Shown here: in pieces, positions 3,336 through 55,658 of the stretch
How positions within the stretch are numbered: the first letter of the stretch is position 1
How the letters are laid out: the number at the start of each line of letters is the position of its first letter
NCBI RefSeq assembly: GCF_011386835.1
Contig: NC_088792.1
Location: 39,112,882-39,176,881, forward strand
DNA: 64,000 bases
Reading direction: 5' to 3'
DNA from: Chrysemys picta bellii
Lineage: Eukaryota > Chordata > Testudines > Emydidae
The notes under the pieces: generated by a model
Database searches by the model: none
What the model saw: only the letters and a program-made list of their open reading frames with translations
Told to the model about the DNA's origin: nothing
Program-made: the position numbers and the translations under genes

Positions 3336-3629
3336 GCCTGGTCTTCACTACGGGGGGGGGTGGGTCGATTTAAGATACGCAAATTCAGCTACGCGAATAG
3401 CGTAGCTGAATTCGACGTATCGGAGCCGACTTACCCCGCTGTGAGGACGGCAGCAAAATCGACCTCCGCGGCTCCCCGTCCACAGCGCTTACTCCCACCT
3501 CCGCTGGTGGAGTAAGAGCGTCGATTCGGGGATCGATTGTCGTGTCCCGACGAGACGCGATAATTCGATCCCCGAGAGATCGATTTCTACCTGCCGATTC
3601 AGGCGGGTAGTGTATGAGAAAGGCCCAGC
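3336..3629. mobile_element. GC-rich palindromic MITE
   Basis: A CpG-rich island of about 290 bp inside AT-rich DNA. The left end (cctggtcttcactacggggg) and the reverse complement of the right end (ctgggcctttctcatacactacccg) are related imperfect inverted termini. The interior is a chain of hairpins: 3375-3394 pairs with 3400-3420, 3486-3499 with 3506-3520, 3521-3545 with 3556-3583, and a short CTACC/GGTAG stem lies near 3587-3610. It has no coding capacity. It looks like a non-autonomous DNA transposon; the superfamily is not assigned. Confidence 0.7.
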
Positions 3630-15273: not shown

Positions 15274-16476
15274 GGTATGGGTACCCGAATGGCCCCACAG
15301 TATGCCAACATTTTTATGGCTGACTTAGAATAGCGCTTCCTCAGCTCTCGTCCCCTAATGCCCCTACTCTGCTTGCGCTACATTGATGACATCTTCATCA
15401 TCTGGACCCATGGAAAAGAAGCCCTTGAGGAATTCCACCAGGATTTCAACAATTTCCACCCCACCATCAACCTCAGCCTGGACTAGTCCACACAAGAGAT
15501 CCACTTCCTGGACACTACAGTGCTAATAAGCGATGGTCACATAAACACCACCCTATACCAGAAACCTACTGACTGCTATACTTACCTACATGCCTCCAGC
15601 TTTCATCCAGACCACACCACACAATCCATTGTCTACAGCCAAGCTCTACCATTGTCTGTGATACAATCGCATTTGCTTCAACACCTCAGTCAGAGACAAA
15701 CACCTACAAGATCTCTATCAAGCGTTCTTACAACTACAATACCCACCTGATGAAGTGAAGAAACAGATTGACAGAGCCAGAAAAGTACCCAGACGTCACC
15801 TACTACAGGACAGGCCCAACAAAGAAAGTAACAGAACGCCACAGGCCGTCACCTTCAGCCCCCAACTAAAACCTCTCCAGTGCATCATCAAGGATCTACA
15901 ACCTATCCTGAAGCATGATCCAACACTCTCACAGATCTTGGGAGACAGGCCAGGCCTTGCTTACAGACAGCCCCCAAACCTGAAACAAATACTCACCAGC
16001 AACCACACAACAAAAACACTAACCCAGGAACCTATCCTTGCAACAAAGCCCATTGCCAACTCTGTCCACATATCTATTCAGGGGACACCATCGTAGGACC
16101 TAATCCCATCAGTCACACTATCAGAGGCTCGTTCATCTGCACATCTACCAATGTGATATATGCTATCATGTGCCAGCAATGCCCCTCCGCCATGTACAGT
16201 GGCCAAACTGGACAGTCTGTACGTAAAAGAATAAATGGACACAAATCAGACATCAAGAATTATAACATTCAAAAACCAGTTGGAGAACAACTTCAATCTC
16301 CCTGGTCACTCAATTACAGACTTAAAAGTCACAATTTTACAACAAAAAAACTTCAAAAACAGACTCCAATGAGAGACTGCTGAATTGGAATTAATTTTCA
16401 AACTGGACACCATTAAATTAGGCTTGAATAAAGACTGGGAATGGATGGGTCATTACACAAAGTAAACTATTTCCCA
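15274..16476 (+). mobile_element. Penelope-like element fragment, RT end plus GIY-YIG
   Basis: A 5'-truncated PLE that starts inside the reverse transcriptase at the region corresponding to motif B (MAPQYANIFMADLE in the intact copy). It runs through the YIDDIF catalytic box, the C-terminal linker and the GIY-YIG nuclease (around 16153-16260, VIYAIMCQQCPSAMY). It carries several stops and frameshifts, for example a TAG shortly after the MADLE motif. It ends where the next partial copy begins, in a tandem arrangement. Sequence style matches the minus-strand copy at 53393-54052 more closely than the long copy at 26801. Confidence 0.85.
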
Positions 16477-17080
16477 TCATGTGCCAGCAATGCTCCTCTG
16501 CCATGTACTTTGGCCAAACCGGACAGTCTCTACGCAAAAGAATAAATGGACACAAATCTGACATCAGGCATCATAACATTCAAAAACCAGTAGGAGAACA
16601 CTTTAACCTGTCTGGTCACTCAATAAGAGACTTGAGGGTGGCAATTTTGCAATAGAAAAGCTTCAAAAACAGACTCCAAACGAGAAACTGCTGAACTTGA
16701 ATTGATATGCAAACTAGATACAATCAACTTAGGCTTGAATAGAGACTGGGAATGGCTGAGCCATTACAAACATTGAATCTATCTCCCCATGTAAGTATTC
16801 TCACACTTCTTATCAAACTGTACTGGGCTATCTTGATTATCACTTCAAAAGTTTTTTCTCTTACTTAATGGTCTCTCAGAGTTGGTAAGACAACTCCCAC
16901 CTTTTCATGCTCTCTGTATGTGTATATATATCTCCTCAATATATGTTCCATTCTATGCATCTGAAGAAGTGGGCGGTAGCCCATGAAAGCTTATGCTCAA
17001 ATTTGTTAGTCTCTAAGGTGCCACAAGTACTCCTGTTCTTTTTGCAGATACAGACTAACACGGCTGCTATTCTGAAATAT
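16477..17080 (+). mobile_element. Second tandem PLE 3' fragment
   Basis: The sequence restarts inside the GIY-YIG domain ('atcatgtgccagcaatgctcc') immediately after the first copy has reached its C-terminus. It then continues through the 3'UTR to the element terminus 'cagactaacacggctgct'. It contains an in-frame stop (TAG near 16653). The 3'UTR holds a hammerhead-like motif at 16961-16998. Confidence 0.8.
16961..16998 (+). ncRNA. Hammerhead-ribozyme-like motif in PLE 3'UTR
   Basis: Order of elements: CTGAAGA core, stem II GTGGGC/GCCCAT with loop GGTA, GAAA core, a tiny stem III GC-TTAT-GC, then TC at the expected cleavage position. This matches the conserved CUGANGA...GAAA...UH layout. Hammerhead motifs are documented in Penelope-like elements. 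Stem I is not convincing in the monomer, so activity is uncertain. Confidence 0.6.
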
Positions 17081-17430
17081 TTCCCCATGTTTATTCCCCC
17101 CCCCCCCACTGCTCCTTACACCTTCTTGTCAACTGCTGGAAATGGACCATTTTGATTACCACTACAAAAAGTTTTTTTTTCTCTCCTGCTGGTAATAGCT
17201 CACTTTAACAAATTACTCTCCTTATAGTGTGTATGGTAACACCCATTGTTTCATGTTCTCTGTGTGTATAGATATATCTTCCTACTGTATTTTCCACTGC
17301 ATGCATCCGATTAAGTGGGTTTTAGCACACGAAAGCTTATGCTCAAATAAATTTGTTAGTCTCTAAGGTCCCACAAGTACTCCTGTTCTTTTTGCTGATA
17401 CAGACTAACACGGCTGCTACTCTGAAACCT
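17081..17430 (+). mobile_element. Third tandem PLE 3' terminus
   Basis: Contains a third 3'UTR ending in 'cagactaacacggctgct', with the 'gaaagcttatgctc' block and a decayed hammerhead-like core (CCGATTA, 17307-17344). No coding sequence remains. A C run occurs near 17096-17109. Confidence 0.75.
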
Positions 17431-22448: not shown

Positions 22449-22460
22449 TAGAATATCTGT

Positions 22461-22648
22461 AAAAAGCAACAGAGAGTCCTGTGGCACCTTTAAGACTAAC
22501 AGATGTATTGGAGCATAAGCTTTCGTGGGTGAATGCCCACTTTGTTGGATGCATGCTTATGCTCCAATACATCTGTTAATCTTAAAGGTGCCACAGGACT
22601 CTGTTGCTTTTTACAGATCCAGACTAACACGTTTACACCTCTGATACT
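22461..22648. mobile_element. Mini-PLE: two inverted PLE termini with 12-bp TSD
   Basis: The first half (22461 to about 22550) is the reverse complement of a PLE 3' end. The second half (about 22551-22648) is a PLE 3' end in plus orientation, so the whole folds into one long hairpin. The exact 12-bp repeat TAGAATATCTGT flanks it (22449-22460 and 22649-22660), so it inserted as a unit. The left arm starts at 'aaaaagcaaca' and lacks the last ~36 bases of the right arm, as in the long copy at 26801. The minus-arm ribozyme core is damaged (CAACAAA). Confidence 0.8.
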
Positions 22649-23214
22649 TAGAATATCTGTGTTCCTAGCAGTGATTAAATGCTTAATTTTGATGACCCAG
22701 CTGTTGCTGCTGTTCCAAGCCTCATTTGGTTCATCATCAGGGAACTCCCCATTACTGGGCAAATGGCTATGACAGATTATATCTTTTCCATGGAGGATGG
22801 TATTGTATATAGAAAGTATAAGCAAAAAAGAAATATCAGATTGGCATGTCAAACAAATTTTATATAGAGAGAGATAACAGCATTTTTTTCAGAGTTGCAG
22901 GAAGAAGATCCGAATAGAGAGGGGTTAAAAAAAATCCAACATAATCACAGAGATCAATCTTTTCCTTGTCCTCCCGAAGGAGGGAAACTCTTCACCTTCA
23001 TTGCATATGCCCACCCTACCTATCATCCCTAAAAATGCTGCATCTGGTCTGCCAGCCTTCATCAGTCACTGTTTAACTTTCGAACAAGTACCTTCACTTA
23101 TTCTGCCATGTTGCATCCTGTGCATAAGACGACTCATATGCAGAGACACCTCATTGTCCTCCTTCAAATCCATCCTTAAGATTCTTCTCATCTGTGATGC
23201 CTCCCGTCGGTGTA

Positions 23215-26415: not shown

Positions 26416-26660
26416 TGTTATGAAATAATAATAGTTCTTACATAGTTCTTACTAATTCTACAGTCCAATTTCACTCTTGCTGTAAGCAGACACAGCCCTA
26501 ATTGACTTCAGTGGAAGATGCACCCTCTTCAATCAGTCATGAATTTGGTCACATATGTTCTACTTGGTTTAAAACATTAAGCCTTAGAATCACTCCTCTG
26601 AGGTAGGTAATACCTTAAATGTCAGTGAGAGAAATGTGAAGGAAAAAGAAGAGATACTAT

Positions 26661-26783
26661 TAGGGTGACCAGATGTCCCAATTTTATAGGGACAGTCCCG
26701 ATTTTTGGGTCATTTTCTTATATAGGCTCCTATTACCCCCCACCCCCGTCCCGATTTTTCACACTTGCTGTCTGGTCACCCTA
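26661..26783. mobile_element. hAT-like MITE with 8-bp TSD
   Basis: Perfect inverted tips TAGGGTGACCAGA and TCTGGTCACCCTA enclose a 123-bp C/T-rich core. The octamer GATACTAT flanks both ends (26653-26660 and 26784-26791), consistent with hAT-type insertion. The right-hand octamer is also part of the repeat flanking the adjacent PLE. Confidence 0.85.
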
Positions 26784-26849
26784 GATACTATAGTCCATAG
26801 AAAGCAAGAGAGGGTCCTGTGGCACCTTTAAGACTAACAGAAGTATTGG

Positions 26850-26887
26850 GAGCATAAGCTTTCGTGGGTAAAACCTCACTTCTTCAG
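26850..26887 (-). ncRNA. Hammerhead-ribozyme-like motif, left PLE arm
   Basis: On the minus strand: CTGAAGA, stem II GTGAGG/ACCCAC (one A.C mismatch), GAAA, mini stem III GC-TTAT-GC, then TC. It is the inverted counterpart of the motif at 29728-29766. Confidence 0.55.
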
Positions 26888-27022
26888 ATGCAAGTAATGG
26901 AAATCTCCAGAGGCAGGTATAAATCAGTATGGAGATAACGAGGTTAGTTCAATCAGGGAGGGTGAGGTGCTCTGCTAGCAGTTGAGGTGTGAACACCAAG
27001 GGAGGAGAAACTGCTTCTGTAG

Positions 27023-29662
27023 TTGGATAGCCATTCACAGTCTTTGTTTAATCCTGATATCATCTTCCTTTCCAAATGCAAACGGATGGACATCATACCA
27101 AATGGACTGAAGGTGAAAAATCCATTGCTATCTACATACTGCACAGACCACAGTGAGAGATTATGCCATACACTATCAAAGAAACTGAGGAACCACCTGA
27201 TCAGCATCCTATACAGCAAACAGAAAAACTTCAAGAAAGAGCTCTCCAACCTGGAGACTTTCATAAATAACCAACCCTCCACACAAATGGACTTTACTAA
27301 AATAAGACAGGAGATCTACATTACACACTTCACCTCTCTACAAAGGAAAAAGGACCGTAAGCTGTCTAAAATCCTACCTGCCACATGGGGCCACAACAGG
27401 GGTACCCCTAACTCACCCAGCAATATCGTCAATTTATCCAGCTACACACTCAACCCAGCAGAAGAGTCTGTCCTATCTCGGGGACTCTCTTTTTGCCCCA
27501 GCTCTCCCACGAACATGATACAGTTCTGCGGTGATCTGGAAGCCTACTTTCACCGCCTCCGACTCAAAGAATACTTTCAAGATAACACTGAGCAGCGCAC
27601 TGATACACAGATACCCTCCCACCAACAACATAGGAAGAAGAACTCCACATGGACTCCTCCTGAGGGTCGAAATGACAGTCTGGACCTATACATAGAATGC
27701 TTCCGCCGACGTGCACAGGCAGAAATTGTGGAAAAACAACATCGCTTGCCTCATAACCTAAGTCGTGCAGAATGCAATGCCATCCACAGCCTCAGAAACC
27801 ACCCTGACATTATCATCAAAGAGGCTGATAAAGGAGGTGCTGTTGTCATCATGAACAGGTCTGACTACCAGAGGGAGGCTGCCAGACAACTCTCCAATAC
27901 CAAATTCTACAGGCCACTTTCCTCAGATCCCACTGAGGAATACACTAAGAAACTGCACCATCTACTCAGGACACTCCCTACATTAACACACGAACAAATC
28001 AACATACCCTTAGAGCCCCGACCGGGGTTATTCTATCTACTACCTAAGATCCACAAACCTGGAAATCGTGGACGCCCCATCATCTCGGGCATTGGCACTC
28101 TCACTGAAGGACTGTCTGGATATGTGGACTCCCTACTCAGACCCTACGCCACCAGCACTCCCAGCTATCTCCGTGACACCATAGATTTCCTGAGAAAACT
28201 ACAATGCATTGGTGACCTCCCAGAAAACACCATCCTAGCCACCATAGATGTAGAGGCTCTCTACACAAACATCCCACACACAGATGGAATGCAAGCTGTC
28301 AGGAACAGTATCCCTGATGATGACACAGCACAGCTTGTTGCTGAGCTCTGTGACTTTATCCTCACACAGAATTATTTCAAATTTGGTGACAATATATACC
28401 TCCAGACCAGTGGCACCGCTATGGGCACCCACATGGCCCCACAATATGCCAACATTTTTATGGCTGACCTGGAACAATGCTTCCTCAGCTCTCGTCCACT
28501 CACGCCCCTTCTCTACCTACGCTACATTGATGACATCTTCATCATCTGGACCCATGGGAAGGAGACCCTGGAAGAATTCCACCATGATTTCAACAGCTTC
28601 CACCCCACCATCAACCTCAGCCTGGACCAATCTACACGGGAGGTCCACTTCCTAGACACCACCGTACAAATAAGCGATGGCCACATTAACACCACCCTAT
28701 ACCGAAAACCCACCGACCGCTATGCCTACCTTCATGCCTCCAGCTTCCACCCCGGTCACACCACACGATCCATCGTCTACAGCCAAGCACTGAGGTACAA
28801 TCGCATCTGCTCCAACCCCTCTGACAGAGACCAACACCTACAAGATCTTCACCAAGCATTCTCAAAACTATGATACCCACACAAGGAAATAAAGAAACAA
28901 ATCAACAGAGCCAGACATGAACCCAGAAGCCTCCTGCTACAAGACAGGCCTAAAAGAGAAACCAACAGAACTCCACTGGCCATCACCTACAGTCCTCAGC
29001 TTCAACCTCTCCAACGCATCATCAGTGATCTACAACCCATCCTGGACAATGATCCCTCACTTTCACAGACCTTGGGAGGCAGGCCAGTCCTTGCCCACAG
29101 ACAACCTGCCAACCTTAAGCATATTCTCACCAGCAACCACGCACCGCACCATAACAACTCTAACTCAGGAACCAACCCATGCAACAAACCTCGATGCCAA
29201 CTCTGCCCACATATCTACACCAGCAACACCATCACAGGACCTAACCAGATCAGCTACAACATCACCGGCTCATTCACCTGCACGTCCACCAATGTTATAT
29301 ATGCCATCATATGCCAGCAATGTCCCTCTGCTATGTACATTGGCCAAACTGGACAGTCACTACGCAAGAGGATAAATGGACACAAGTCAGATATCAGGAA
29401 TGGCAATATACAAAAACCTGTAGGAGAACACTTCAACATCCCTGGCCACACAATAGCAAATGTAAAGGTAGCCATCTTACAGCAAAAAAACTTCAGGACC
29501 AGACTCCAAAGAGAAACTGCTGAGCTCCAGTTCATTTGCAAATTTGACACCATCAGATCAGGATTAAACAAAGACTGTGAATGGCTATCCAACTACAGAA
29601 GCAGTTTCTCCTCCCTTGGTATTCACACCTCAACTGCTAACAGAGCACCTCACCCTCCCTGA
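27023..29662 (+). pseudogene. PLE polyprotein: reverse transcriptase plus GIY-YIG endonuclease, one TGA
   Basis: One frame of 880 codons, with stop at 29660, interrupted only by a TGA at 28871-28873; both sides are in the same frame. The first ATG (27023) lies in the inverted arm, and the ATG at 27086 is the likelier start. Reverse transcriptase motifs: TIDVEALYTNIPH (motif A, near 28240), SGTAMGTHMAPQYANIF (motif B, near 28410) and YIDDIF (motif C, 28523-28540, catalytic Asp pair at residues 503-504). After the TGA come a linker with a Cys cluster (CNKPRCQLC) and the GIY-YIG nuclease, VIYAI at 29294 and MYIGQTGQS at 29333, with the RKRINGHKSD helix. PLE proteins copy RNA at a nicked target. 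The stop would cut off the nuclease, so this copy is probably dead but young. No intron is visible. Confidence 0.9.
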
Positions 29663-29727
29663 TTGAACTAACCTCGTTATCTCCATACTGATTTATACCT
29701 GCCTCTGGAGATTTCCATTACTTGCAT

Positions 29728-29766
29728 CTGAAGAAGTGAGGTTCTTACCCACGAAAGCTTATGCTC
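29728..29766 (+). ncRNA. Hammerhead-ribozyme-like motif, right PLE arm
   Basis: CTGAAGA core, stem II GTGAG/ACCCAC with one mismatch, GAAA, mini stem III GC-TTAT-GC, then TC. It lies in the 3'UTR about 70 bp after the stop codon. The layout agrees with hammerhead motifs known from PLE terminal repeats. Confidence 0.6.
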
Positions 29767-29864
29767 CCAATACTTCTGTTAGTCTTAAAGGTGCCACAGG
29801 ACCCTCTGTTGCTTTTTACAGATTCAGACTAACACGGCTTCCCCTCTGATACTATAGTCCATAG

Positions 29865-30285
29865 ACTTACTCTTTACACCAAGATGGTGATACAGTCAGT
29901 GAATTAAAATATATTCTGGCAGGAAACATTAGAAAAAGAGAAAGAGAATCTACAGGAATTTAACATTCAAAGGGAAGTTGAGATATAAACGGTAGCTGTC
30001 ATTGCTTGGGAAATCATGGTGAAGAGGACAGTGGTCATATCACAGATTGAGCAGAGCTCTAGCACAGGAGAGAGGATAGTAAAGTTCATGGCAGTGTGAC
30101 ACAACCAGATTGAGGCCACTGTGTCTTCCTAATAATGGATGTAATAAGTTGTTTGGTAATTGTTTACATCTGGGCATGACTGAAAAAATGGCTTGTTTTG
30201 GGCTGCTGTGATGGATGTAGCACAAAAAATGACCACAGTATTTTCAATGTTTTTCTTTAGAGCTGGTTGACATATTTTTGACTAA
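29865..30285. other. Intronic stretch, nothing recognised
   Basis: About 420 bp of AT-rich sequence between the PLE and an LTR-like block. No feature was recognised. Confidence 0.4.
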
Positions 30286-30974
30286 ATATATGTAACCCTT
30301 CTGCCCATCTGAGTTGGCAGCAACAAGGGCCGGGTTCTGTATCTAGGGGTTCCGTTTAAATAACGCAATGCAAAACCGGCTCGAGCCCCCACCCAGTGAC
30401 CTGGGACAATTACATACCACCCCCTGGGCGCCTCTAAGAGGCAATACATCTCCTCTCGCAAGCACGGAGTCTGAGTGTAGCAGAAAATGTTTAATAACAT
30501 GAGGTAAACGACATCAGCATTAAATTGGAAAAAACACCATAAACAGGATTCCTAACACAAACCATGAGCAAAAGACCCACCCCAGCAAATTGGGCCGTGT
30601 CCTTTCCCTTTGGTTCTTGAATCCAGCAACCCAAAGATCACCCAGAGGCCCCAAATGTCCAACAACCCCCGAAGTCTCTGTCCCTGGTCAGTGCAGCCCC
30701 AGAGTAAAAGGGGGGAGGCACGCAGGGTGTTAAGGGGCACCTTACGTGATCCGAGGCCGACCGGCCGTCTCTCCGTGGTGTTCCGCCGCAGCCTTCACCA
30801 CGAGCCAGTCCACTTCCTGCCGTCCCACAAACTGCTCCGCTCTACGAGCTGCTCCGCTCTGCTCCGCTCACCGACCTGTGAGCCGCTCCAGCCATCCCCG
30901 CAAATGGCTCCGCTCACCGACCTGTGAGCCACTCCAGCCGTCCCCGCAAACAGCTCTTGCTGCACCCACCCAGG
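30286..30974 (-). repeat. LTR-like block, probable endogenous retroelement LTR
   Basis: Starts 'tgtaacccttctgcccat', which on the minus strand ends in GGGTTACA, a common LTR end. 'atgtttaataacatg' near 30487 gives ATTAAA on the minus strand. The right part is GC-rich with a two-unit tandem repeat at 30862-30953. I see no matching target duplication and the right boundary is blurred by a short tandem of 'cttgctgcacccaccca'. No retroviral coding sequence is present. LTR identity is an inference. Confidence 0.45.
30862..30953. repeat. 46-bp tandem repeat, two units
   Basis: The unit 'ctccgctcaccgacctgtg...' ending 'ccccgcaaa' occurs twice, at 30862 and 30908, with a few differences. It is followed at 30955 by two copies of 'cttgctgcacccaccca'. 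Confidence 0.8.
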
Positions 30975-31037
30975 CTTGCTGCACCCACCCAAGGGAATGT
31001 CATCATTTGAGACATCTTTCATTCTTCCATTTGGGCA
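30975..31037 (+). repeat. Perfect 63-bp inverted repeat, left arm
   Basis: Starts 'cttgctgcacccaccc' and ends 'cttccatttgggca'. The exact reverse complement is at 31425-31487 with no mismatch in 63 positions. Identity stops abruptly at both ends of the arm. Confidence 0.9.
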
Positions 31038-31424: not shown

Positions 31425-31487
31425 TGCCCAAATGGAAGAATGAAAGATGTCTCAAATGATGACATTCCCTTGGGTGGGTGCAGCAAG
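31425..31487 (-). repeat. Perfect 63-bp inverted repeat, right arm
   Basis: Reverse complement of 30975-31037, identical over all 63 bases. It starts 'tgcccaaatggaagaatg' and ends 'gggtgggtgcagcaag'. The 387-bp spacer holds SINE-like fragments and AT-rich sequence. Confidence 0.9.
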
Positions 31488-53365: not shown

Positions 53366-53392
53366 GATGTTATAGAAAGTTTGTGTGGATAT

Positions 53393-54052
53393 ATTTCAGA
53401 GTAACAGCCGTGTTAGTCTGTATCCGCAAAAAGAAGAACAGGAGTACTTGTGGCACCTTAGAGACTAACAAATTTATTAGAGCATAAGCTTTCGTGGACT
53501 ACAGCCCACTTCTTCGGATGCATATAGAATGGAACATATAATGAGGAGATATATATACACACATACAGAGAGCATAAACAGGTGGGAGTTGTCTTACCAA
53601 CTCTGAGAGGCCAATTAATTAAGAGAAAAAAAACTTTTGAAGTGATAATCAAGCTAGCCGAGTACAGACAGTGTGATAAGAAGTGTGAGAGTACTTACAA
53701 GGGGAGATAGAGTCAATGTTTGTAATGGCTCAGCCATTCCCAGTCCTTATTCAAACCGGAGTTGATTGTGTCTAGTTTGCATATCAATTCTAGCTCTGCA
53801 GTCTCTCTTTGGAGTCTGTTTTTGAAGTTTTTCTGTTGTAATATAGCCACCCGCAGGTCTGTCACTGAATGACCAGACAGGTTAAAGTGTTCTCCCACTG
53901 GTTTTTGAGTATTTTGATTCCTGATGTCAGATTTGTGTCCATTAATTCTTTTGCGTAGAGACTGTCCGGTTTGGCCAATGTACATGGCAGAGGGGCATTG
54001 CTGGCACATGATGGCATATATCACATTGGTAGATGTGCAGGTGAACGAGCCT
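53393..54052 (-). mobile_element. Penelope-like element 3' fragment with GIY-YIG domain
   Basis: On the minus strand it contains the GIY-YIG nuclease in an open frame (53713-54024, MIYAIMCQQCPSAMYIGQTGQ, then RKRINGHKSD) and the full 3'UTR to the terminus 'agcagccgtgttagtctg'-type sequence at 53400-53420. It is 5' truncated near 54052. It belongs to the same subfamily as the tandem copies at 15274-17430 ('gtgccacaagtactcctg'), not to the long copy at 26801. Confidence 0.85.
53480..53517 (-). ncRNA. Hammerhead-ribozyme-like motif in PLE 3'UTR
   Basis: On the minus strand: CCGAAGA (one change from CTGAAGA), stem II GTGGGC/GTCCAC with loop TGTA, GAAA, mini stem III GC-TTAT-GC, then TC. Relative to 16961-16998, stem II base changes keep pairing. 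Confidence 0.5.
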
Positions 54053-55658
54053 CTTAGTGCTGAAAAACGATTGCTCCCCCTGAATCAGATTGTAGTTTTG
54101 GGTGCTCAGCACCTTAGAAAATCAGGCCCAATATAACAGTATGTATGTATCATAATGTTTTTTAATTCCATTAGTCTTGCTTAAACAGACAGTTCTGGAG
54201 TCTTGCATTTTGTTATTGGCTTTTTGCCTTTCTTGAAAAACTGATGAAGACACATCATGATTTTATTTATAAAATAATTCTTCCAATGCTTACATCTTCC
54301 AACTCTCCCTGCTTGTATTGGTCATACAACCTACATTTACGTGAATTTAGAACCAGTTTAATTTCAGTCCTGCCTATAATTTTAATCAGGTTATATTGTT
54401 ATGTAGTCTTTTCTAAACACTAATTTTCGCATGCCTATGAATTATAATGAATGTCGTAATTTACGTCTTGATACTGGCTGATGTAACAGTTAAAGAATGC
54501 CAAAAGCTGGTGCATGTGGCCTAAGCAACCCCCACAGAATTCTATAATAACAACCTTTGTTTTATTAGAACTATTGGTATAGAGTTGATGGGAGTAGTTG
54601 CATTATTATTTGTGGGTATGTAATATTACAGTGCAGTAATATCTGAGACTATTGGACAGCTCGTGATTGTAAATGAGAACTTGCTGTCAAATGCTACTCT
54701 TTTTTGTTTAAGTAGGTAAAAAAGGAAATGAAATAACATTTTTGTAAAAATGTTTGTTCAAGAAGCTTAATGTAATTAAATAATACAATATTTGAAAGGA
54801 ATCAAAAGCCAGACTGGTAGATTATCACACAGTCAGAAGATTTCTTGAGTAGGCACTGGAAGATATCAGAGAAGGATAAATGTTCTCTTAGCTGCCTAAC
54901 AAAATGATTTTATGATGATTTAAGTGCCATATAAAGTCACTTGTTAACATTATTTTTGATGAGTTTGAAAGAGAGAATAATCCATAAAAGTTATAAAACA
55001 GTTTATGATATTTAGAAAAATCTTTGCACAAAAGAAGGTCAGAGAAATTTTGCACAATTAAGACTGTGTGAAGACTACATAATTTTTCTGAGAAGATTTT
55101 ATAAAGTGATTTTCTTTTATGTTTGTGCGGAGAATTTGGTTTATTGTCACTAGCAAGTTTTTGTCACTAGGATTCATTTTCCTCTATATTTTTATTGCTA
55201 TGAAAGGTGACAAAAATGACAGATCTGAAGCGGAAGTCTTCCATTATCTTCTGAATGGATACAGTATGGGTAACACTATCTTTTCTCATGCTTCTCTGTT
55301 AGTGTGCCTCAACCTTGTTACCATGTTCTGAATACATCTTCTGTAGCAGTGAGAGGTGCTCATTCAGACCACAACTTCTCTAATGGGCCAGCAAGAGTAT
55401 CAGTGAGTGACAAGTGTGATGATAGCTTCACAACTTGGATACCTGCTCAGTAGGAATTGAACCTATCATCTTTTATCACATAGGCCACAGGACAACCATC
55501 AGATGGTAGCAAATTGCAGTCACTGCAGACAAGGGCTGGATGCCGTTCAGCAACTGAGAGGAAAAAGGTCCTCTGTTTCATCACCAATCCCCTGTGCTAT
55601 GAAAAATATTTGTAATCTAAGCATTCTTTTCTTTTTACGTCTTTGTTAATGTTAAACC
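54053..55658. other. Intronic stretch, nothing recognised
   Basis: AT-rich sequence between a PLE fragment and a mariner-like MITE. No feature was recognised. Confidence 0.4.

Follow-up and report, generated by a model that had tools for sequence, protein, structure and literature searches.

A 5′-truncated Penelope-like element in the painted turtle and the pairing of tailed and tail-less ends among related insertions

A Penelope-like insertion with inverted arms

The analysed window is a 64,000-nt stretch of the painted turtle genome (Chrysemys picta bellii, NC_088792.1, 39,112,882-39,176,881, forward strand), and all positions below refer to it. It contains an insertion of a Penelope-like element (PLE), in which a sense body with its 3′ end is preceded by an antisense copy of that same end:

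26784-29865: PLE insertion including both target repeats, 3.08 kb
26784-26801, no strand: target-site duplication, left copy, 18 bp, GATACTATAGTCCATAGA
26802-27058, minus strand: antisense arm, the element's 3′ end minus the tail, delimited by inverted-arm alignment
27059-29556, plus strand: sense body with the bulk of the reverse transcriptase (RT)-endonuclease frame, starting 85 bp past the pseudo-LTR end of a normal unit
28181-28618, plus strand: RVT_1, reverse transcriptase domain (Pfam)
28523-28534, plus strand: YIDD within RVT_1
28871-28873, plus strand: in-frame TGA, a sense codon in 37 of 38 fetched loci
29180-29314, plus strand: cysteine-rich segment, a Neptune-like feature with four conserved Cys ahead of the GIY-YIG match and a fifth just within it
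29294-29419, plus strand: GIY-YIG endonuclease match (Pfam)
29557-29814, plus strand: sense 3′ arm or pseudo-LTR, holding the last codons and the stop TGA at 29660-29662
29728-29766 (plus), 26850-26887 (minus) and 16961-16998 (plus): hammerhead-ribozyme-like core, matched as CTGAAGA, stem II, GAAA, 3-bp stem III, TC
29815-29847 (33 nt), or to 29853 (39 nt) if GATACT belongs to the element, plus strand: tail, past the end point of the antisense arm
29848-29865, no strand: target-site duplication, right copy, 18 bp, GATACTATAGTCCATAGA

The inverted arms of 260 bp given in the preliminary description were borne out at about 257 bp. After trimming of the target repeat, 26802-27058 and 29557-29814 differ by three substitutions and one indel (97-98% alike). 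The flanking direct repeat exists as well, at 18 bp rather than the 17 bp first given; its effective length is 12-18 bp, since its first six bases, GATACT, are ambiguous and may be the element's own 3′ end, as in the tail end of the small copy at 22449-22659. Arm and body meet at GAT (27056-27058), a 3-nt microhomology inside the 8-bp palindrome TGATATCA (27055-27062). At this joint the focal copy turns into the antisense arm, whereas the sister copy L047 shows the sequence that normally precedes the body. Because the outer ends carry a target duplication, a single insertion is the likelier history, rather than recombination within the window.

Immediately to the left lies a MITE-like element of 123 bp (26661-26783, in the region 26653-26791), with ends TAGGGTGACCAG and CTGGTCACCCTA, an 8-bp duplication GATACTAT and a weak mir-584 match under the gathering score. 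As the PLE inserted directly beside it, this MITE is probably older. Two further PLE stretches were seen elsewhere in the window. At 15276-17428, a second, ~80% identical subfamily forms a partial tandem that comprises a body, a repeat of the endonuclease end and, 345 bp from each other, two 3′ ends in direct orientation, and at 53386-54078 a degraded 3′ fragment lies on the minus strand (76-80% identity). A perfect 63-bp inverted repeat (30975-31037 and 31425-31487, 387 bp apart), near GCTCCGCTC-rich repeats at 30824-30952, is possibly the remnant of a DNA transposon.

The plus-strand frame 27023-29662 is open except for the TGA at 28871-28873. RVT_1 (E 3.6e-11) and GIY-YIG (E 2e-5) both exceed their curated cut-offs and, apart from the TGA, share one frame, the RT with C-terminal GIY-YIG arrangement of canonical endonuclease-containing PLEs. 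The frame and domains of the 880-codon RT and GIY-YIG frame first described, broken by the TGA alone, thus stand; its first 12 codons (27023-27058) are antisense arm. Cys 706, 711, 714 and 739 (P0001 numbering), ahead of the GIY-YIG match, are nearly invariant, and Cys 750 lies just inside it. A cysteine-rich domain between RT and endonuclease is described as a Neptune-like feature (PMC3846280); such a segment occupies the same place in the focal element. Against the 80%-identical copy in the window, third codon positions differ far more often (128/387) than second (38/386) or first positions (50/385), and this bias of third over second positions indicates that the frame evolved under purifying selection.

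The closest protein relatives come from turtles, the best with 91% identity over 83% of the query (Gopherus). Among solved structures, the search returned weak RT matches alone (E 0.11 or worse), and phage records gave no match. Sea-turtle gene models P0003, P0004, P0011 and P0027 join a TRIM-like N-terminus to PLE segments, which in P0003 and P0004 include RT and endonuclease (the P0004 cluster has 49 member sequences); these joined models could be a real fusion or a model artefact. Caretta zinc-finger and DnaJ isoform models (P0017-P0019, P0029) also contain PLE segments, probably as exonised or mis-predicted repeat.

Hammerhead ribozymes combine a conserved core, CUGANGA and GAAA, with three stems. 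The strict core occurs at three window sites, all of them PLE 3′ ends and two of them the focal arms, against an average of 0.2 over 20 windows simulated with a Markov model; no clear stem I was recognised, and an Rfam search of these hammerhead-like cores in the PLE 3′ ends gave no match.

Truncation, sister copies and age

With 28300-28900 as query against the same genome, 2500 candidates were obtained and the top 40 scored; leaving aside the focal copy, the remaining 39 were all ~98% identical over 601 bp. We fetched 38 loci covering these 39 best matches; two of the loci (L009 and L010) are one insertion with the same target repeat. Across the aligned frame, their identity to the focal copy is 96-98%. 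The TGA site is covered in every one of the 38 and reads as a sense codon in 37 and as TGA in one, which removes the concern that all copies might share this lesion. Over the aligned part, 20 of the 38 have neither stop nor frameshift. Ten are body-complete, and six of these are free of stops and frameshifts over 27059-29662, which supports the earlier suggestion that a working sister copy may exist, as far as open frames can indicate.

The sister copies also define what the focal copy lacks. Just upstream of the body, all ten body-complete copies carry an open 84-nt stretch with a Met, preceded in nine of them by a pseudo-LTR end, and the spacer between pseudo-LTR and body measures 85 bp in L014, L016, L033 and L040. 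Their layout is pseudo-LTR, 85 bp, body and pseudo-LTR, the partial tandem arrangement characteristic of PLEs, and the focal copy has no direct 5′ pseudo-LTR. In L047, read by eye, the first ATG lies 25 codons ahead of the point at which the focal body starts. Protein relatives point the same way: of 120 aligned, 40 reach the query start and 34 of these, including a few fused gene models, extend at least 15 residues further at the N-terminus, and sea-turtle P0008, P0011, P0014 and P0116 carry a Met-containing stretch upstream of DIIFLSKCK, where the focal copy turns into the antisense arm. Given the Met stretch and pseudo-LTR of its sisters, the focal copy lacks its initiating Met, some 25 codons and the pseudo-LTR at its 5′ end, and was probably inactive from the moment of insertion, with or without the TGA.

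The element had been presented as one stop codon from full length. The frame itself lends this some appeal, with one stop in 865 codons counted from 27065 and, in a 16-row alignment, disagreement with most relatives at 2 of 148 constrained columns. Measured against sister copies that carry 85 bp more and mostly a preceding direct pseudo-LTR, a full-length element with a single lesion is refuted, and we regard this reading as highly improbable.

To date the insertions, turtle neutral rates of 8.43e-10 and 4.77e-10 were used (PMC4263362). Provided that a single source gave rise to both arms at the same time, the three focal substitutions in 257 bp correspond to 7.0-12.3 Myr (Poisson range about 1.4-37 Myr), and the untrimmed count of 4 in 261 to 9-16 Myr; such ages would be underestimates after conversion between arms and overestimates if the arms came from two source copies. 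The youngest dated insertions have arm differences of 1/1264, 2/2426, 2/1086 and 4/1535, about 0.5-3 Myr, with the youngest point estimates at 0.5-0.9 Myr. Among nine usable cases, the nearest relative of the inverted arm is the direct copy of its own insertion in five and ranks 2, 3, 5 and 10 in the others (L043, with 62 bp of overlap, was excluded), so by sequence similarity both arms would tend to come from one source.

The proposal of a recently active lineage agrees with these data, both in the 0.08-0.3% divergence of the youngest dated arms and in the 96-98% identity of the 38 best-match loci; the focal insertion itself, at 7-12 Myr, is not very recent. The painted turtle thus appears to harbour a large PLE family that was active within the last few million years and includes copies open over the body. 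Turtle Penelope families listed in Repbase, such as Penelope-2_CPB, belong to the same element class and, by name, the same host (PMC9004415); the focal family is probably one of them.

One tail per two-armed insertion

To score insertion ends, a tail was defined as a match to 29557-29853 reaching position 294-297, and an end as tail-less if the match stopped at 257-267 or further in. Target duplications had to measure at least 10 bp, with one mismatch tolerated from 12 bp. The first sample comprised the 38 loci and the focal copy, picked by a body piece regardless of tails. An inverted outer end was found in 18 insertions of this sample, 17 of them with a duplication, and among these 17 the tail was on the right only in 12 and on the left only in five. 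A second sample came from a 3′-end search; from the 39 matches listed, eight small loci representing seven insertions were fetched and yielded three two-armed insertions (L048, L047+L049 and L052, the last with one mismatch in its 12-bp duplication). All three have a tail on the left and none on the right. For L047, a tail-less right end was expected beforehand (this expectation was unrecorded) and was found on inspection.

Taken together, exactly one tail is present in 20 of 20 two-armed insertions with a duplication, on the right in 12 and on the left in eight (Fisher p = 7.9e-6 over the 20; 1.6e-4 in the first 17), in one genome and essentially one family. The duplications at their outer ends span 10-18 bp, and 10-17 bp in the non-focal insertions. 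Both the target-site duplication and the optional 3′ tail of 30-40 nt, by which PLEs are recognised, are present in this family. One-armed insertions with a duplication carry a tail in seven of nine cases.

Several loci were kept out of the tail count: L010 (identical to L009); L017 and L027 (with 7-bp and 8-bp duplications, respectively); L012, L015, L016, L018, L020, L021, L026, L030 and L044, where no duplication of at least 9 bp was found at the scored ends and, in several, the left end is not reached; L050, with a tail-less right end and an inverted piece 68% alike; and L051, L053 and L054, whose fetched piece is without an outward inverted pseudo-LTR end. L013 was included with a 13-bp duplication. 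L038 has two tail-less inverted ends; no target duplication was found, and this locus is not among the 20. In L014 and L033, the tail-less arm starts further in (positions 204 and 225) than at the usual tail-less site.

In L022 (positions 3352-3391 of the oriented locus), the left arm is barely more than the tail. This arm, started at the tail (257-294), breaks off no more than a few bases from where the other cDNA begins (255-257). Two cDNAs lying on one RNA would be expected to look like this, but it is a single case. At 22449-22659, outside the 20, the window holds a tiny two-armed insertion of another subfamily, with two 3′ ends head to head, the duplication TAGAATATCTG and a tail on one end only.

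Routes of integration

The focal locus is best explained as a 5′-truncated, inactive insertion of a recently active PLE that most likely arose by reverse transcription primed from both target strands (probability roughly 0.8). Two-sided priming is favoured by the target duplications at the outer ends, the single tail in all 20 insertions, and the biochemistry of PAc, a purified Penelope protein from the anole, which cleaves and extends both target strands and initiates reverse transcription at either of two neighbouring positions within the RNA, between which the genomic tail lies (PMC11167929). Under this model, the element's enzyme would cut the two target strands 12-18 bp apart, and the element RNA would be reverse-transcribed from primers on both. 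The right-hand cDNA would begin at the distal start, include the tail, run for about 2.8 kb and halt with about 25 codons of the coding region still uncopied; the left-hand cDNA would begin about 33 nt further upstream in the RNA, leave out the tail and run for about 257 nt. The two cDNA ends would then be joined at the GAT microhomology. What was observed directly is the anatomy, the duplicated target, the truncation, the asymmetric tails and the sister copies; we infer in which order the events occurred and that both arms were templated by RNA.

The pairing of ends suggests a further step, to which we give even odds: a single complex may integrate PLEs in a concerted way, priming both target strands and using each of the two tail-bounding starts exactly once, one per strand. 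The simplest cause of such usage would be that both cDNAs are begun on one RNA, or that a single RNP is asymmetric. Some observations sit uneasily with two-sided priming from paired starts, namely the inner arm starts of L014 and L033 and the two tail-less ends of L038. In vitro, moreover, the start site is reported not to differ between the strands, for an element of the Penelope/Poseidon group (PMC11167929).

Strict pairing favours either a single RNA on which each start is available once, or two subunits with fixed roles. With fixed roles, the first strand would always use one site and the second strand the other, through an asymmetric protein dimer or two RNAs. The 20 unlike pairs fit this arrangement equally well, the anole protein is predicted to dimerise (PMC11167929), and no point against it sets it apart from the one-RNA form; we hold it to be a possible reading, somewhat short of even odds. 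The tail being on the right in 12 and on the left in eight insertions means that the side is not fixed by the start site.

Self-priming, in which the 3′ end of the cDNA folds back and copies its own 3′ region into an inverted arm, has been proposed for rotifer Penelopes, whose inverted pseudo-LTRs with palindromic junctions the authors preferred to explain by self-priming on an antisense template (PMC3846280). The focal junction, with its inverted arm and the 8-bp palindrome TGATATCA, resembles these cases and in this respect speaks against two-sided priming, and arms that tend to share a source (own direct copy nearest in 5/9) would also suit a fold-back. A fold-back should, however, reach the cDNA end and so copy the same end twice, leaving tails alike on both sides, unless the second end was always trimmed at the same place. 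No insertion of the 20 has like ends, so the strict pairing argues against self-priming, which we consider unlikely.

Two-sided priming with a start site chosen freely and independently on each strand would agree with bulk reactions in vitro, in which no strand difference in start site was reported (PMC11167929). If the odds were the same at the two ends, no fewer than half of all insertions should be same-type pairs, whereas none was seen in 20 (0.5^20 = 1e-6). With a Fisher p of 8e-6 over the 20, and 1.6e-4 in the 17 picked regardless of tails, independent choice is already strongly disfavoured and, in our judgement, very improbable. Classical LINE-1-type twin priming inverts an upstream part without duplicating the 3′ end, so that, despite the inverted 5′ segment, target duplication and microhomology at the joint that it would share with the focal insertion, it is ruled out by an arm that presents the focal 3′ end in both orientations.

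Two published systems are close enough for comparison. Pen2a_Av and related Penelopes of the rotifer Adineta vaga, as described, have a ~840-aa RT and GIY-YIG frame with pseudo-LTRs; their 5′ inverted pseudo-LTR is 37 bp shorter than the direct ones, which is comparable to the turtle arms, a 31-bp tail is optionally present on one inverted pseudo-LTR, and the target duplication measures 9 bp (PMC3846280). They belong to the Penelope/Poseidon group (PMC3846280), probably unlike the focal element, and the focal copy is 5′-truncated without a direct 5′ pseudo-LTR. PAc, a Poseidon element of Anolis carolinensis, likewise has tandem pseudo-LTR units and two adjacent reverse transcription starts bounding a tail of 30-40 nt (PMC11167929); it differs in having a biochemically active protein (PMC11167929) and probably in belonging to another PLE group than the focal element.

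A tail on one of the inverted pseudo-LTRs has thus already been published, and what is new here is the count of how tailed and tail-less ends are paired. Neither such a count nor a paper on PLE integration in turtles appeared among the titles, abstract openings and passages surveyed, which is not proof of absence.

In summary, the focal element is an ordinary one, and the tail rule is the interesting part. The insertion preserves an integration route in a form that can be dated. With its pairing counted across 20 insertions, the 'optional' tail follows a rule, which limits the ways in which PLEs can copy both strands and is testable in the existing in vitro system.
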